Shown piece after piece: positions 27,832 to 38,009 of a stretch of DNA of 64,000 bases. The stretch covers positions 1,860,001-1,924,000 of the forward strand of contig JAHRHY010000003.1 of NCBI GenBank assembly GCA_019671135.1, in the 5' to 3' direction. The stretch's first letter is position 1; each line of letters opens with the position of its first letter. The notes under the pieces are model-generated. The model had not been told where the DNA came from. It made no database searches and saw only the letters and a list, made by a program, of their open reading frames with translations. The DNA is from Linnemannia hyalina. Its lineage: Eukaryota; Mortierellomycota; Mortierellomycetes; Mortierellales; Mortierellaceae. The position numbers were made by a program, and so were the translations under genes.

Positions 27832-29592
27832 CAGTAAAGTGCTCCAATCAATTGATCACGATTTCGTCCTTTTTTATTGAAATGGTCATTCACCAATGTT
27901 CTAAATGGCCCTCAGATTCCTGTCATTCATTCTCTTGATTCGTAACCTCATTCATCACAGATTGCCTTTTTTTGCATGGACCGACATTGGATCATCGCCG
28001 GAATTGAAATGCCCGATGTTGCTTGATCTATTAATTGGATTACATGCATCATGGTTTTCTTTTTTTAGCTTGCGGGGTCTTTTTAGTTTCTATCTACCTT
28101 AAAACTTCAATGACTTACTTCCTCAATCGTGTAAGACCTTCTATCAAAGTTTGGATCTCCTACCCAAAGTCTTTGTGTTTGAACTATATGCATGACTTTA
28201 CATGGGTTTAGCACGCATTAAGCTGTTTTTTTAATACCGCAAGCTCAATACACTTTCTACAGATAAATTGAAAGCAGTTCCATACAAACGATATCAGGTG
28301 TGATGTAGAAATCAGGAAAAGTACGGTACATTTATATCATTTATTGAAGATATCGTTAAAGTATTTTGTTACATGGATCTAGCATGATTTCACTCATTTT
28401 CATGATATTACACTCAACTAAGAAAGGCTGGTCTCGAGTATCATAGATCTTTAGATCACACTTGGCGCCTTTTGTACGGAACTGCTTTCAATTTATCTGT
28501 AGAAAGTGTACTGAGCTTGTGGGATTAATAAAAAAGATTGTTCCGTGTTAAGCCCATGTAAAATTTTACATAGAGATCACTCGCCATATATGGCGAATGA
28601 CAAAAATGATATTCAATTCCGGCGATGAATCGATGTCGGCTCATGCAGAAAAAGACAAGTGATGATGAATGAGGTTATGAATCAAGAAAATACACGACAG
28701 GAATCTACAGTGCTCCAATCAATTGATCAACCAAAACGCGATTTCGACGTTTTTTTGAAATGCTCATTCATCAATGTTCTGAGCAACCCCCAGATTCCTG
28801 TCATTCATTCTCTTGATTCGTAACCTCATTCATCACCACTTTTCTTTTTTGCATGAACCGACATCAGATCATCGCTAGAATTGAAATGCTTGAAATTGGT
28901 TGATCAATTAATTGGATCGCATGTAGTGGCGAATGATTTCCATGTAAAAATTTACATGGGTTTAGCACGGAACGAACTGATTTCTTGAATACTACTATGT
29001 CAATGCACTTTCTTCAAGCAAACTGAAAGCAGTCCCATATAGAGCACATTAAGTGCGATCTAATTTCTTTGATGTGCGGAGCCAGCTATTCTCAATAGAG
29101 TGCAATATCATGACAAAATGTAAAATTGTGCTAGATCCATGTAACAAAACATACTTCAACAATACCTTCTGTAAATGATATAAACGCTTTGTAGATCACA
29201 TACCATGTCCTTTGTATGGAACTGCTTTCAGTTTGCCTGAAGAAAGTGCATTGACATAGTGTATTCAAGAAATCAGTTCGTTCCGTGCTAAACCCATGTA
29301 AATTTTTACATGGAAATCATTCGCCACTACATGCGATCCAATTAATTGATCAACCAATTTCAAGCATTTCAATTCTAGCGATGATCTGATGTCGGTTCAT
29401 GCAAAAAAGAAAAGTGGTGATGAATGAGGTTACGAATCAAGAGAATGAATGACAGGAATCTGGGGGTTGCTCAGAACATTGATGAATGAGTATTTCAAAA
29501 AAAAACGTCGAAATCGTGTTTTGGTTGATCAATTGATTGGAGCACTGTAGGGGTTAATCGGAACATTGATGAATGAGCATTTCAAAAAAAAA
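27832..29592. mobile_element. MITE A, host of a nested MITE
   Basis: The left arm starts CAGTAAAGTGCTCCAATCAA at 27832. The right arm is an imperfect reverse complement of it, interrupted at 28707 by MITE B and resumed at 29550-29592. Arms share GATTCCTGTCATTCATTC, the AACCTCATTCATCAC region and GCACGCATTAAGC-type inner sequence. The extreme right end is missing or too diverged. There is no coding capacity. Similarity to MITE B shows that both belong to one family. Confidence 0.75.
28708..29547. mobile_element. MITE B, Tc1/mariner-like, 840 bp, TA target duplication
   Basis: The element begins CAGTGCTCCAATCAATTGAT and ends with its reverse complement, ATCAATTGATTGGAGCACTG. It is flanked by TA at 28706-28707 and 29548-29549. 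The CAGTG terminus and TA duplication are characteristic of Tc1/mariner elements. Terminal inverted repeats extend for roughly 330 bp per arm with few mismatches, leaving a unique centre near 29045-29210. No transposase is encoded. It inserted into the right arm of MITE A. Confidence 0.9.
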
Positions 29593-30423
29593 GCTAAATT
29601 CACAAAAAGAGTGATCATTTTTGTCGAACACTTTAGAAAGAAATACGAGGCATGGAGAGAGAAAGAGAGAAAACAATGAGAAAGCAAGAAGAGAAAAGAG
29701 AGAGAGAGTGAGCTTATTCTTTTGTTTGTGTCAAGTTTTTTTCATGCACGAGAGCAATGTTAGGGTGAAGTTTTGGGATGAAATATCATGGGCGATAGTC
29801 CGTCTTGACCAAACGAACCGGTGAACGCTTTCTTTTGGAACTCCTGTCATTATTGTGTGAAGTTGTCGATAGTTGTTCATCTTTATTGCAGCAGGCAAGC
29901 CATTTTCATTTTCGTGAATATGGAATGGAAAGGGGATATTGGTGACAGCTACCAGACGATGTTATATCAGATGAGCATTTGCTTGTTGGGTTTCAGCCGT
30001 TGGGAACCTTGTTTGTCGCACAAAGAGAATAAGCTCGCATAGGCTCTCTCCATTGCTCTCCAGTGGCATCAAACAGGTCTTCTCAACATCGTAATGGCTA
30101 TTTGTTATCGTCTTTTCTCGTACACACGGCGCCTTCGATATAAACTACAATTTGTAGCTTATATCGAGGGTGGAGTGTACAGGAACACGATGAATTTATT
30201 AGATTGAGACCCACCGCACACGCTTGAAGCATACGATGACTTTGAACTGGTTTGTTGAGGAATAATTAGATTACTCAGGTACACCTCGACATGTTGGATT
30301 CATGTTAGTTCTTGTTTGCCCAAGAGAAAGAGAAAAAAAACACGATTTTTATTTACTATTCCCTGAAATATAGAGGAATAAAAAATGACGGCAAACGAGA
30401 TCCAACACAAAGTAATGCCATCT
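29593..30423. other. Non-coding stretch downstream of secreted-protein gene
   Basis: No recognisable gene. An imperfect hairpin with about 16-nt arms, TCGATATAAACTACAA against TTGTAGCTTATATCGA, lies near 30137-30170. The 3' UTR of the secreted-protein gene is at the right end. Confidence 0.55.
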
Positions 30424-30929: not shown

Positions 30930-32618
30930 CTTGTCGTTCTAATGAGTGACTGTAGCTGTTCTGTTGCAGCACGGGTTTATTTTATTTATCCCTTTTTATT
31001 TCACGAAGAAATAGCTCAACCGAGCGTGCCACACGACAGTGTTTCTTATCGAATCGACGAATCTTGCTTTCGTTTAGTTAAGCCCGTACTAAGTGCCTGT
31101 AAATGGTCTTAACGAAACGTGTTATCGAACCAGAACCCGTTTGTTACGAAACACTGTCGCACGAGCCGAACACTGTCTCTCCCCTCTTATTGGCGCCATT
31201 TTTTTCCCTTCTGTTTCAATCTCCTTTACCAATATTACGGTACATAAAAGAATGAGCAGTAATGATGAGTAACGAGGAGAGGGAGAGAAAGATGGTGTGC
31301 AGGAAATCGCCCAAAAAAAATGTCTGCCTAGTTTAACCGCATTTTATTTAACACAAGAGAGAGACCTACAGTACTTATCTCATTGCTATAGTTATTATCA
31401 ACGACTTTGTCTGGTTTCTTGTTTCCTTGCGACGCCTGGAGACTTTCGCACAATCAGAAATGCGACTATACAAAAACAAACAAACGAGAGCGCAAATAAT
31501 GAGGGTGCATATAGTCAGAGGGGGAGGCGAGAGAATTAGCAAAAAAGATCAGGGCTCAAGGATAAGAACAATCGCATCGCGCGCTTTCTTGTGTCTTTTA
31601 CACACGCCATGCCTATGACATACCTTGGAGCAGCAATGGTGTCACTCGAAGCTAAATTTTGGGCGTTCAATTTTTCTGGTATTTTTTGAACTCAAGTCGG
31701 CATGACTGGCAACTCGCAATTGGAACTTGGCTCAGATGCATGACAGGGAGAGTTGAGCTGTTGGCGTGCATGGACGAGTCACAGAACCTGAGCAATTCAC
31801 TTCTCTCTCTCTCTCTCTCTCTCTACAGTGTTGGTAAAAACCCTTTACCGACAAATTATTCTGCATAGAGTCGGGCCCTTGGGTGCATGTGGAACGGAGA
31901 GTCTTCTAGACTGCCTGCACATGCAGCTCTACATAGGTCGTTATCCTTTTACGAGAATTACGGATAAATACCTTGGGTGAATTGTTTTGCATAAGTCTCG
32001 ATGAGGCAGGTCCCCACCAAAGCACAATAGTCTGTGATCAAGTCAGAATGCGTCTAAGTCGGTATTGTCAAAGTACCAAAAAATAGATTTCGTGTGTTCC
32101 TAATGAGAGGTGGATGATTTTCCACAAAAGGCTCTCTTAGATTCAATGTGCGAATGTGATCTTTAAGATTTGGCCTATGAAGGCGTGCACTTAAAGCGTT
32201 CAAAGTTCGATTGGCGAAAATGCTCTTTTACCCAGAACTAATAGATGCATGCGTGCAGCAGTGAGAGACCATACACTATTTGCACTTCCCATTTTTTTCT
32301 TTTGTCAATTGCATTTGTATGCCAGACCAGAGGTGCAATTCGCCAACGCCCCAAGTCCATTCTCTGCGCTCTTAAAGCCTTGCCCACTCTTACTCCCACA
32401 CCCTACTCATAGTTCATAAACCATTGCAGGGAATAAATTTCAATGCCATGGTGCCACGAAACAGGCAGAAAGGTGGAAGGGTGTAAGGAGAAGGATGTAC
32501 TTAGGCTAGTGGATTTATTGTAAGACAAGGTTAATAAAGAAGGAAGACTGACGGTCTACTTATACTAGGAACGAGGGACGACTTTAGTTACTAGAAAAAG
32601 GTAGGTTGAGACTAATAG
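30930..32618. other. Non-coding stretch with foldback element
   Basis: No supported gene. It contains the foldback at about 31030-31163 and a CT microsatellite near 31801-31824. Sequence from 32440 to 32618 is the 3' side of the Fanzor region. Confidence 0.55.
31030..31163. mobile_element. Small foldback/MITE-like element
   Basis: CACACGACAGTGTTTC near 31030 is matched in inverse orientation by GAAACACTGTCGCACGAG ending near 31163. Inner segments with CGTTTAGTTAAG and CTTAACGAAACG also pair imperfectly. The size is about 135 bp, with no coding capacity and no clear target duplication. Confidence 0.5.
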
Positions 32619-32664
32619 GCGTGCTAAACCCGTGTAACGAATCTGCGTGCTAAACCCGTGTGAC
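32619..32664. repeat. Twin 20-nt repeat downstream of Fanzor
   Basis: GCGTGCTAAACCCGTGTAAC (32619-32638) and GCGTGCTAAACCCGTGTGAC (32645-32664) differ at one base, with a 26-nt period. They lie about 90-130 nt beyond the Fanzor stop codon, where the guide RNA and element end are expected in Fanzor loci. Confidence 0.85.
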
Positions 32665-32752
32665 AGTGGAAGAAAGCACTGCCCCACAATCTTCACGTTA
32701 TAGAGTGGGTGCAACACTCAAAAAAATAAAACCTATCTACTCATTCCTCCCA

Positions 32753-35342
32753 TTAGTCCGCCTCCTCCACAGCCTTGCGCTTCGACAACCGGGTTGGACT
32801 TGGCGGGGGCTGAGTGTCATCGATCGCCTTGCGCTTCCTGGACTGCCGAGGTTGACTTGACTTGGGCTTGGCATCGGTGTTGGGTGAGGTACTTTTGCTA
32901 CTTCCAGCTCCGTCTGCGCTGCTACTGAGGTCCTCCTTCCAAGGATATCGGCCCTGTGCATCGACTGGTTGGAGGTAGTCGGGTCTCTGTTGGCCCAGAA
33001 GGTGGCCGCGAACCACATTGGCCATGTTGTGTGCCGCCATCTCATCCCTGTGGAAGTACATACTACAGGTCTTGCAGAACAATCTCCGGATCGTAACCTG
33101 CGCCACGAAGGCCTGGCAGCGAGGGCACTTCTTCGAGGAATAGTATTCATTGATACCGACAACGATGTATCCAAGCGAACGGGCCCAAAAAGACATAATG
33201 GTGATATGTTCGGCAAGTTAATAAATGAAATGTGCCCGCCCCTAAAAGACAACGCCGATGTTATGAAACACCTACCAGGCACACAAAGAAAGCGAAGAAC
33301 GTTCCGTGAAGAGATGTTAATCTTGACTGGCTCGCAAATCGCCCTAACCCAATGCCGATAACGGCCATAGTGCTTTCGTTTCTCTTTGCACCGACCGAAC
33401 CTCCAATCATACTCAGCAGTCGATCCGCAATTGTCCGGAACTCCTCCTCTCGAGCGCGGCTGGCATCGAAATTGTGGCGGTGGTATCGCATGTTGTTGCC
33501 ATTGTAGAATTCGTTCAACTGGTCCTCCGCCCTTTGGATCTCCTCCACGTAATCCATGATACTCGCATCGTCACCTCGGAGAGGGGGCAAATTCGACTCG
33601 ATTTCTTCAACCGACTCGGTGGCGCCTGCAGGGACAATCCGCTTCTGCTCCTCTGTCCATCGCCGGAATTTGAAAGATGGTTGAGAGACTGCCTTTTGTT
33701 TTACCGATAGGTTATAGAAAACCTGAGACTGAGGGCTGGTTAATGTGGTCACGGCGGCCAGAGTCGAGGTGGTTGGTATGTCCATGGCAGTCGAGGCGGC
33801 ATGGTTCTTTCCCTTGCTAGTATCGTTCGAGCGTGTTGAATCCGGCAATGAGGCGTAGGCACCCACGACACAGGCTTGACCCAAGTCCAGACACAGAATC
33901 TTGATCAGATCGGGCGCACAATTCGGCCACAACTGTGCAACGTCCTCCTTGGTCCGAACAATGTTGCGAATCTCCGTCAGGTAATAGTCCAATCCGCCCA
34001 CTGTAGTCGTCAAGCGAGGCGGCAGACGATCTTCTGGTAATCTCCTAAACCGGACCGCTTGCAGTTCCCTCAACTTGAAAGCGGCCAGTTGAATACTGAA
34101 ACCATTCGTCCGAATGGAACCGCGGAGCACATACCCTTTCGTGGCATATGTTCTAGGGTCGAACGCTGGCTGGCGGATGGTGAGGAGATGGGCTTTGATT
34201 TCCGAAATGGTCATCAACTTGACAGCGGCTCGATATCCTACTTTGCCCTTCTGTCGACTTGTTAGATCAACAGGGGCAACATCGGAAAGAGGGCTCTTGA
34301 TCACGAAGCCTGGCTCTCGGTCGCGCAACCAGATATCCGTCACATCCGTCAATGCCAGACAGCCAGGGAACACGGGCGTTACCAACTCCAGAATCTTGAC
34401 CTTGAGGGTGGGTCTCTTCCAGAACAATGTGATAATCTCTTTTTCTGAAAAGGACACAAATCCATCTTTGCTAGCGGACATAGGGATAATCCGGCGCGAG
34501 TTTCCGCTCATTCTGTTGAAGACCAGAAAATTCTCCACTGCTGTCATCTCTTTGCGAATCTCCAGGTCACATCCTACCAACGAGCCCTCAACCTTGTCCT
34601 TTCGTCTCTTCAGCTATGATAAAAAAAGGTGAAGATATTAAACACATAGTATTAAAAACTTGCTTTCAGAACGTTACATACAAACTATGTTTTCAAAGAC
34701 AATATGATCTACTCGTACCTGCTCTTGTATCTCACGCGTTCCGTTGCTGTACATCTTCTTGAGTTCAACCGTCAGCTGGGAAGATACAGATCGCACAAGT
34801 TCGGTGGGCGGAAATGCTGTATTCTCGCGCAAAGCAGATCTCTCGCGCAAAGGAGACTGCCGCAAACGATCAAACAAGCCCATTCCCTGGAGTCGCTGAA
34901 TGAATCCATTGACGGATCGGCCGACACCTTGTTCGCGTGGATAGTTACCAGAGTATAGAAAGCGCAAGAACCCGTTCAGAAACTGCTGCTGGCGATCCTT
35001 TTTGGCGTCGTCGTCATCGTCCGAATTGATGTGTGCAATGTTGTCACTATTGTTGGACTCCTCAGGTACGATCCTTGGGCAGAGAAGATCTAGATACTCG
35101 CGATCGGCAGGAATGAGATCACCGACGGCCATCCTCTCAACATACATCACTACAATCCTCTGTGCCCGCCTCTTGACCCCATATGCCTCATGAACCGCGT
35201 CCTGCAAACAAGTAAAGGCCTCCTTGGCAACGGCGACATCGTCCTTCAATGCACTTTTGACGTTTTTAGACAGCGTTCCAACACGGAGCAATGCCGGTGG
35301 GTGTTCCCACCCAAGTGCCTGGACGACCTGTTTTTTGTCCAT
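32753..35342 (-). CDS. Fanzor (eukaryotic TnpB-like RNA-guided nuclease)
   Basis: Three coding blocks are read: 35342-34719 (208 codons), 34613-33276 (446 codons, joined by a good GT-AG intron in phase 0) and about 33196-32753 (147 codons). Block 1 starts MDKKQVVQALGWEHPP and is helical. Block 2 ends with the first RuvC segment, CLDLGQACVVGAYA (Asp codon 33887-33885), and GIGLGRFASQSRLTSLH. Block 3 holds NEYYSSKKCPRC (Glu codon 33148-33146), the second zinc pair FCKTC, and HRDEMAAHNMANV (Asp codon 33046-33044). The Glu lies 34 residues before the last Asp, as in Fanzors with a relocated catalytic Glu. A Lys/Ser-rich tail follows. The total is near 800 aa, within the Fanzor1 range. The block 2/3 join changes frame and lacks a clean acceptor, so the copy may be inactive. 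No transposase of its own is seen. Confidence 0.85.
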
Positions 35343-35543
35343 CCTGGCCCACCCTTGCAAGCGGATCCCAATCTGGTGGCGATTCAAACTGCCTGGAGTG
35401 CCAATAGTGCAGCCAATCAGGCCGCCTGGAATACGTATAATGCGACTCATCAAGCTGCTTGGATCTCTTATCAGGAGTCACAGCGTGCAAGTTGTGCTGC
35501 ATACTGCGAAGCTTTGGCAGTGTGGGAACAACTGAAGAAGTAA
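35190..35543 (+). other. Open frame antisense to Fanzor 5' end with QAAW repeats
   Basis: A 117-codon plus-strand frame overlaps the opposite strand of the Fanzor N-terminus. Its second half reads as a short imperfect repeat with QTAW, QAAWNTY and QAAWISY spaced about 11-12 residues apart. That composition looks coding and lies upstream of the Fanzor start. I know no family for it; it may be a 3' fragment of another gene or element. The part that overlaps Fanzor is probably just its shadow. Confidence 0.3.
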
Positions 35544-35596
35544 CCGGGAAAATAGAGTAGGACTAGGTAGCACGATTATTGAAAGCAAGCGAAGGC

Positions 35597-37436
35597 TTAG
35601 TTTTTGTTGCGTTTTGATTTCCGCACGCCTTGATTCTGAGATGAAGAGGAAATGTGGGAGGGCATGACACCATCGGTAGCCAGCCTTTTTCTTTTGTTCG
35701 ACGTGCCCTTATTTTTGTTATTGTCTTGTCTCTCGTGGGACACATTGTCCAGGACATATGGAGGAAGCAATTGCTTTCTCTGCTGACGCCAATAGTTACG
35801 TACTATTTGGATATCGTCAAAGTTTGTAAACGGAATCCAGCTATTGTGTTCATGACCATACCTTTTCCAACGCACATAGTAGTGGACATATGAGGATTTT
35901 TCTCGTCTTGTGTATGATCGAGAATGGCTTCAACGTCATACGATTCTATTATAGCGGTTGATTCTGAACTCTTTTCCTCACTGGTTGTGGGGAGCTGTGA
36001 ACTATGTCTTCCATAATACTTCAATTGAGAAGGAGCATAGCGACGTGAAAGTGGTGAACCTGTGCCATCAAGCAAGATATATGAATTATCATGATATCTA
36101 TCACCAATCATGAAAGGACCTTTAAGCTTTGGAGCCGTAGTTCCTTCGGTGCGTTCATCTCTTGCCATGACCATGGTACCATTCTCATAATTAACAAGCT
36201 TGTGTGTCTTGTTGAACCTGGCTACCATTTTGTCTTGCCTTTCCTTGCTCTTTTCCGATATCGCTGGATAAACCAACTGAGTCAGGTATCGTAGCCTTGT
36301 TTCAAGATCTTCGTCGGTAACAGATTGCTTTCCGTGCCACTGTGATCACTTGGGCGATGGAAAGGACGACCAAGAAACAGGCTGAATGGCGAAGAGTTAT
36401 GGAGACTCGACACACGTGCATTGATCTGCAGCTGTACAGCTGGCAGATGTCGATCCCAATCCGTAGGGTTTTCTTGCGCCATTTTTCTCAGCATGTTTTT
36501 GACGTTCTGAACGGATCTTCCGGCAACACCATTGGAGCGAGGATGATAAGGAGTGCAGAGGTGATGTTCTACTTTCAATTTTGATAGGACTTCCTGGAGT
36601 AGTTTGTTTGAAAACTATCCACCATTATCACTTTGAATAATTTTAGGAAAGCCTATGAAGCAGAACAGATCAAAAAGATGACGAGCTATACCAGCAGCAG
36701 TCTTGTCTTTTATTGCATGGAGGAATACGAAGCGAGTGCATACGTCTACGACGATAAGAATATGCACGTCGTCTCTGTTGGAAGGTTCCAAATCAACGGC
36801 CAGATCAATAGCTAGATGCTCTCCAGGCATGGTTGCATAAATAGCTCGCATGGGATGATAACCCTTTTTAGCAATATTGACCCTTTGGCAAGTGATGCAG
36901 GTTTTAACATATTCACAGCAATCCTTTTGCATGTTGTTCCATTTGATGCCGCGTTCATACAATTCCTGAATCATGGCATGATGACCATTGCGACCGAATG
37001 CGTGAACTTCTGTAAGTAGTTCTTCCCTTTCTTCAGGAGAGGGCATGAAATATTCGGTGTCATCCATCATGTTTTGGACGAAAGAAGCATTGGATTGTGC
37101 CTGTAAGACTCTTTGTGGTAAATTAGAGCTGCCCATAGAGGGCGACGATTGCAATTGTTCATTCGAATGAGAAACACTCATAATATTAGAAGAGTTTTTT
37201 GTTACTCTTGTATGTTGACTGGTCCTGCTTTGAGTCACTTGTTTATGATGATCATCCTTTAGAACACTCTCGGGAACTGCTCGAGAAAGAGTGTCAGGAA
37301 TAATATTGAGGAGGCCTGGACGATAGACAATGTTGATCGTGAACCGCAAAAAGGTCTTCTTCCACTCAGCCAATTTCTGATTGGAGAAGGATTTTTGACT
37401 GGTAAGAAAAGTCAACGGTTTGGAGGCCGTCCACAT
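35597..37436 (-). pseudogene. Ty3/gypsy chromovirus remnant: RNase H end, integrase, chromodomain
   Basis: On the minus strand the order is that of a chromovirus pol 3' end. The tail of RNase H (SKPLTFLTSQKSFSNQ, VYRPGLLNIIPDTLSR) comes first, at about 37436-37270. An H2C2 integrase finger follows (NGHHAMIQELYERG, CCEYVKTCITCQ), then the integrase core with LIVVDVCTRF and SDNGG, and a C-terminal chromodomain (VEAILDH, RWKRYGHEHNSW). It is dead. A TAG follows SDNGG at 36617-36615. NGVAGRSVQ has Gly where the catalytic Glu of the DDE triad belongs. One-base frameshifts are seen near 36297 and near 35893 inside the chromodomain. Reverse transcriptase, protease, gag and LTRs are not visible; the element is cut at the palindrome at 37422. 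Some third-position bias remains. Confidence 0.85.
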
Positions 37437-37909
37437 CCCTATAGTTTAACATGAACTGCAATGCAGACATAACCTATTGGGTCTTACCATAGTACTAGCA
37501 TATATAGCAATACCCATATACTGTTGTTGATGAATGGAAGTTGTATGAACTATCATCCCAATCTACCCCAAATCAACGCCCTTTAGTAGATGTAGACGAG
37601 TCATCTCCATTAGCCACAAATAAGTTTCGGAAAGAAAAGTTGCCTGTTGAACGCGCGTGAACTGTGTAAAGTCAGCGCGGATTTCAGGCAACTTTTCTTT
37701 CCGAAACTTATTTGTGGCTAATGGAGATGACTCGTCTACATCTACTAAAGGGCGTTGATTTGGGGTAGATTGGGATGATAGTTCATACAACTTCCATTCA
37801 TCAACAACAGTATATGGGTATTGCTATATATGCTAGTACTATGGTAAGACCCAATAGGTTATGTCTGCATTGCAGTTCATGTTAAACTATAGGGATGTGG
37901 ACGGCCTCC
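37422..37909. repeat. Perfect 225-bp inverted repeat with 38-nt spacer
   Basis: The left arm, 37422-37646, and the right arm, 37685-37909, are exact reverse complements by eye over all 225 positions, with no indel. The spacer is 37647-37684 and is itself partly self-complementary (GCGCG...CGCGC). The left end overlaps the first codons of the chromovirus remnant; the right end abuts sequence leading into the FAD monooxygenase C-terminal remnant. The arms carry no recognised domain. Confidence 0.95.
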
Positions 37910-38009
37910 TAAGGTATGGGAGATGACCTGAATACTAGATGAGGAGGTTTTCATGGTTAAACGAATGGGATATTCACTCTCAATCTGTGATGGTTCATAT
38001 TCCAATTAG

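Follow-up and report, generated by a model that had tools for sequence, protein, structure and literature searches.

A truncated Fanzor in Linnemannia hyalina whose full-length relatives are predicted 5' nuclease-Fanzor1 fusions

The window analyzed here is a 64,000-nucleotide (nt) stretch, C23:1860001-1924000, of the 51.5-Mb genome of the fungus Linnemannia hyalina; between 32753 and 35342 of this window, on the minus strand, lie blocks that encode a Fanzor-type nuclease. The remaining parts are these:

34719..35342, minus strand: remaining exon 1, the N-terminal part of the Fanzor; the upstream linker and FEN/EXO1-like domain are gone
34614..34718, minus strand: intron 1, 105 nt, GT..AG
33276..34613, minus strand: exon 2, open, with the RuvC-I Asp in a DLG motif and TNG where Fanzor1 has TDG
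33185..33275, minus strand: intron 2, 91 nt by homology, donor GT, acceptor GG instead of AG
32753..33184, minus strand: exon 3, with the RuvC-II Glu, the C4 zinc ribbon, the RuvC-III Asp and the PF07282 match; stop codon at 32753-32755
32672..32752, minus strand: 3' flank remnant without the conserved end motif

The first-pass annotation read these blocks as a spliced Fanzor nuclease gene. The Fanzor identity stands, but a working gene does not, given that the 5' part, an acceptor and the 3' end have been lost. The RuvC-I Asp, CPRC/FCKTC zinc ribbon and RuvC-III motif that had been pointed out are present in the order given, as CLDLGQACVVGAYA in exon 2, followed by CPRC/FCKTC and HRDEMAAHNMANV in exon 3. 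Exons 1 and 2 together are open over 654 codons, and the 797-amino-acid conceptual protein retains the RuvC-I Asp (D451), the rearranged RuvC-II Glu (E667) and the RuvC-III Asp (D701).

Membership in the Fanzor family is supported by the domain, the homologs, the active-site layout and, for the relative P0010 (41% identical), the fold. The profile check proposed with the first annotation comes out in its favor: exon 3 scores against PF07282, the zinc-ribbon family of Fanzors and TnpB, with an E value of 1.9e-10 and 41.2 bits (cut-off, 26.3), and the genome as a whole holds 91 PF07282 matches, 90 of them above the curated cut-off. A protein database search in which part of the candidates were scored returned 54 homologs (best E value, 0), the nearest being a Mortierella hygrophila protein that is 81% identical over 99%. 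An organism name is attached to 47 of the 54, and all genera named there and in further searches belong to the Mortierellaceae; these searches rely on shared words and do not establish absence outside the family. Among PDB chains, exon 3 matches a TnpB-like chain, L79, at 4.7e-4, and exon 2 has no match by sequence up to an E value of 1. The sequence profiles A3 and A1 had no solved Fanzor1 chain among their listed matches; fold comparison alone recovered these chains, with P0010, and not the window copy itself, matching the solved Fanzor1 fold. The Fanzor definition as given by Bao and Jurka (2013), D-X(125,275)-[TS][TS]XX-[C4 zinc finger]-X(5,50)-RD, is matched by D451, S670 S671 K K C674, C694 and the RD at 700-701. 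The fingerprint described by Yoon et al. (2023), an alternative RuvC-II Glu six residues ahead of the zinc ribbon, is found by regular expression at E667 and in 21 of 64 homologs, many of the others being partial sequences. Where the WED domain of Fanzor1 has TDG, several relatives keep TDG, and the T and G are invariant in 15 rows.

The window copy is a broken remnant, and 32753-35342, previously taken as the extent of a gene, are the coordinates of a truncated one. About 430 N-terminal residues are absent (433 if P0010 is taken as the guide). The Met at 35342 is not the start of the gene: nine related loci and the fragment L016 have 88-208 further open codons ahead of the residue aligned with this Met, and at 35343 the window switches from Fanzor to chromovirus sequence. 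The lost N terminus was not found in the window, where the relatives' linkers as queries gave a best E value of 0.43 and the nuclease domain gave 0.60. Intron 2 ends in TTTTGG at a point where seven of eight related loci (L040 and L043-L048) have the acceptor AG at the same codon, and the single other AG in the intron, that of the donor aside, leads into an in-frame TAA. The closest paralog has the same GG acceptor, many lesions and a Val in place of the RuvC-I Asp. The eighth locus, L049 (3430-3470), is altered at this acceptor too, the rest of the copy being 98% identical to L048; acceptor loss thus arose more than once. At the other end, homology reaches into the 3' flank as far as 32678 with an L043 fragment and about 32686 with L058, and the end motif conserved in relatives was not found in the window with up to 5 mismatches allowed. 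A covariance model of the relatives' 3' structure has its best window match at an E value of 0.098, barely above a chance-like second match at 0.26; the similar L043 fragment retains a hairpin piece directly past the point where it diverges from the window. The guide RNA expected at 32450-32760 is thus not borne out, and 32452-32671 is instead a separate dispersed repeat. The remaining exons are otherwise open.

What lay outside the view of the first-pass annotation is that the complete family is joined to a second nuclease. By computation, the full-length relatives in the Mortierellaceae, a family of soil fungi, have a predicted 5' nuclease of the DNA-repair type, EXO1/FEN1-like, fused to the front of a Fanzor1-type nuclease. 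When 64 homologs were compared with two profiles, one for the 5' nuclease domain and one for the Fanzor core, 33 matched both, with the nuclease first in 32 and the reverse order in P0053; 29 matched just the Fanzor core and 2 just the nuclease, and many of the entries are partial. Of the 33 two-domain proteins, 26 have a nuclease match of at least 150 residues. Across the L. hyalina genome, a same-strand nuclease-domain match was sought 1.5-6 kb upstream of each of the 91 PF07282 loci and found at 60 of them, at distances of 2.2-4.0 kb (median, 3.1 kb); the downstream and opposite-strand controls each gave 2 of 91. The open stretch ahead of the Fanzor part has no Met in four of nine loci. The relatives' N-terminal domain, which the window copy has lost, has a Rad2-type fold with seven metal-binding carboxylates; D or E occupies every one of these positions in 15 of the 17 rows that cover all seven. 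One L. hyalina protein, P0013 (KI688_009753), is a Fanzor model in which an unrelated N-terminal region replaces the 5' nuclease, as a mis-joined model or another fusion.

The relatives also share a 3' end. The motif CTTCGGTGACGTMATTWWGGCGCCCATT, exact or slightly altered, occurs 16 times across 14 of the 20 regions L039-L058, mostly just past the Fanzor stop; a search with up to 4 mismatches did not find it in L050-L054 and L057. Genome-wide, a 24-letter form, with at most 2 mismatches allowed, occurs at 165 sites, whereas a reversed control pattern occurs at 1. Among the 100 of these sites that were listed, 23 follow a PF07282 match at a distance of 143-479 bp, in every case on its strand, and none precedes one; since the other 77 have no PF07282 match within 1 kb upstream, the motif probably also terminates Fanzor-less elements. 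In the Fanzor elements, a hairpin is followed by CATTAGTG and then by a long terminal hairpin; the end motif makes up the 3' arm of this second hairpin, an arm that is part of the terminal inverted repeat. Single-sequence folds at 11 loci gave z scores of -0.55 to -5.95, six at -4.78 or lower, and -1.67 for the window stretch. An alignment of eight sequences has 26 predicted pairs, 8 of them changed on both sides, and in none of the five measures does any of the 500 shuffles or the slid versions reach the alignment, the eight rows amounting to about five independent families. The resulting RNA model finds sites outside its training rows: the L041 minus-strand element (1e-31; close to L044), the second element of L044 (3e-11), L047 (6e-9), L039 (9e-6), L056 (0.004) and the L043 fragment (0.005). 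In L047 (5443-5581), a cUUCGg hairpin motif stands in two tandem copies at the 3' end. Published work predicts that Fanzor1 scaffolds include terminal inverted repeats, and we infer that the covarying structure of intact relatives looks as an omegaRNA scaffold should.

Two complete relatives have short inverted ends flanked by target site duplications (TSDs) of 10 bp (TCCCTCCAGG, L044) and 8 bp (AGGCATCC, L043); the window copy has neither element end. MuDr/MULE transposons have TSDs of 8-11 bp and terminal inverted repeats. These ends and duplications are in line with MuDr-type Fanzor1 elements, two cases not being proof of a superfamily. No transposase was recognized in the Fanzor elements, for which no systematic transposase search was made.

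In total, we favor, with a probability of roughly 0.7, a reading in which the window contains a copy, dead and truncated at both ends, of a Mortierellaceae transposon whose only recognized gene is an EXO1/FEN1-like 5' nuclease-Fanzor1 fusion, with the following mechanism for intact relatives. In other Fanzors, RNA from the right end of the element is known to guide DNA cleavage by the RuvC domain. By analogy, we posit that the 3' RNA structure would serve as the omegaRNA scaffold and flanking host sequence as the guide, that the RuvC domain would cut the allele or site without the element, that the fused domain would remove 5' strands from the cut, and that repair of the resected cut would copy the element in from the uncut chromosome. 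The strongest form of this idea, that transposons of the Mortierellaceae encode, on a single chain, a homing machine of two nucleases with an RNA-guided cut, EXO1-like resection in cis and repair that copies the transposon, is a speculation that we would not yet bet on. As to what Fanzors do for their eukaryotic transposons, the fused 5' nuclease, with its full set of catalytic carboxylates, hints directly at what follows the cut. If the favored reading is true, nature would provide a guided nuclease that brings its own end resection, and, if homing is what it does, a natural counterpart of engineered fusions between guided nucleases and exonucleases.

Several observations weigh against this reading. 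The window has DLG at RuvC-I, where DPG is, in the account of Yoon et al. (2023), near-exclusive to Fanzors; among the 50 of 64 homologs in which the pattern was found, the middle residue is L in 29, G in 10, A in 6, P in 4 and I in 1, and the protein is therefore filed as a Fanzor variant rather than a standard member. The nuclease match is shorter than 100 residues in 6 of the 33 two-domain proteins, 31 of the 91 genomic loci, the window included, have no upstream nuclease match, and what is known of the fusion comes from gene models and the spacing of exons. The domain is about 16% identical to EXO1, and the fold comparison gives EXO1 and FEN1 tied Z scores; the fold therefore does not separate an exonuclease from a flap nuclease, and the resection step is itself conjectural. 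Pfam XPG_I appears in five of eight proteins, below its cut-off in all five. On the RNA side, a 13-row alignment (A6; RNAalifold) in which the 5' arm was misaligned gave 5 pairs and no covariation, and Fanzor fragments that bear the motif fit the RNA model poorly (L058, E value of 0.96) or not at all (L041:4784).

Could the fused domain serve the transposon in another way? FEN-type enzymes cut 5' flaps, and the domain may act in transposition, through excision or flap removal at element ends, or in RNA processing, rather than in resection of a guided cut. The tie between FEN1 and EXO1 and the elements' lack of a recognized transposase speak for this, which we regard as possible though not probable; the 77 listed motif sites without a Fanzor nearby speak against it without deciding the matter, in that Fanzor-less elements seem to spread too and the nuclease domain would therefore not be needed in cis. 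It is a good deal less plausible that the two domains are neighboring genes of one transposon joined by gene finders: gene models and tblastn spacing are indeed how the fusion is known, and many of the proteins are marked partial, but 32 proteins from several Mortierellaceae genera are modeled as one chain with the nuclease first, and at four of nine loci the open stretch before the Fanzor lacks a Met.

Two further alternatives concern the window product and the RNA. The 654 open codons might still yield a short Fanzor, begun at the Met at 35342 and ended early for want of an acceptor, that acts as a regulator; such a product would have no zinc ribbon, RuvC-II Glu or RuvC-III Asp, chromovirus sequence would lie directly upstream of it, and we consider it very improbable. 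The conserved 3' hairpin, in turn, may be a transposase-binding or Helitron-like terminal structure instead of an omegaRNA. Its 3' arm belongs to the terminal inverted repeat, terminal hairpins are described in Helitron2 elements, some carrying Fanzor1 (PMC3627910), and the decayed fragments L058 and L041:4784 fail the RNA model just as sites away from a Fanzor do. Yet the 3' structure covaries, and motif sites not beside a Fanzor are barely or not matched by the model (none up to an E value of 10 in L055; 7.3 at L039:9801), leaving this alternative doubtful and the omegaRNA scaffold the reading we prefer.

The neighborhood of the remnant includes two features that adjoin it:

35343..37445, minus strand: chromovirus fragment with integrase and chromodomain, directly next to the truncated Fanzor; 92% identical to L054 as far as 37422
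32452..32671, no strand assigned: dispersed repeat resembling a miniature inverted-repeat transposable element (MITE), 89% identical to C4:1730464-1730686, and at that site next to a copy of the Fanzor end motif

The chromovirus noted in the first annotation is thus confirmed. Since the L055 copy of the MITE-like repeat ends in the Fanzor elements' motif, both may share a transposase. The outer margin of the chromovirus fragment carries, at 37419-37646 and 37685-37912, a perfect 228-nt inverted repeat with a 38-nt spacer, which is either a recent palindromic duplication or an assembly artifact. Dense direct and inverted repeats fill 27857-29599, one 243-nt pair at 100% identity, and 29000-29635 is common to L018 and L050. 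Elsewhere, at two sites on C6, L019 and L022 are 79-bp pieces of the 3' exon of this Fanzor that share their borders, as though a different repeat had carried them.

No description of a 5' nuclease combined with a Fanzor was found in the open-licence PMC literature searched: there was no clear report of such a fusion, Fanzor alongside Mortierella, Mucoromycota or XPG gave no match, and the main texts of four Fanzor papers (PMC3627910, PMC10432273, PMC10711439 and PMC11423790) do not mention the domain under the terms searched. The phrase "Fanzor flap endonuclease homologs (Fendons)" in a passage of PMC11071296 on viral contigs may or may not mean a fusion, and PMC12719977 names Fanzor in its reference list only. 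Among known systems, the family resembles the MuDr-type Fanzor1 elements of Rhizopus, Phycomyces and Mucor, which Bao and Jurka (2013) describe from early-diverging fungi with terminal inverted repeats, TSDs near 9 bp and no encoded transposase; a term search of their main text showed no mention of a 5' nuclease domain, and the TSDs read here in two elements are 10 and 8 bp. The closest Fanzor is Fanzor1, notably PpFz1 of Parasitella parasitica (PDB 9cf0), from which the Mortierellaceae family differs in that most members replace DPG by DLG, DGG, DAG or DIG (4 of 50 have DPG) and in the extra N-terminal 5' nuclease domain. That domain, in turn, departs from human EXO1, FEN1 and XPG, the Rad2 family 5' nucleases to which it is about 16% identical, in being transposon-borne and, as predicted here, fused to an RNA-guided nuclease.
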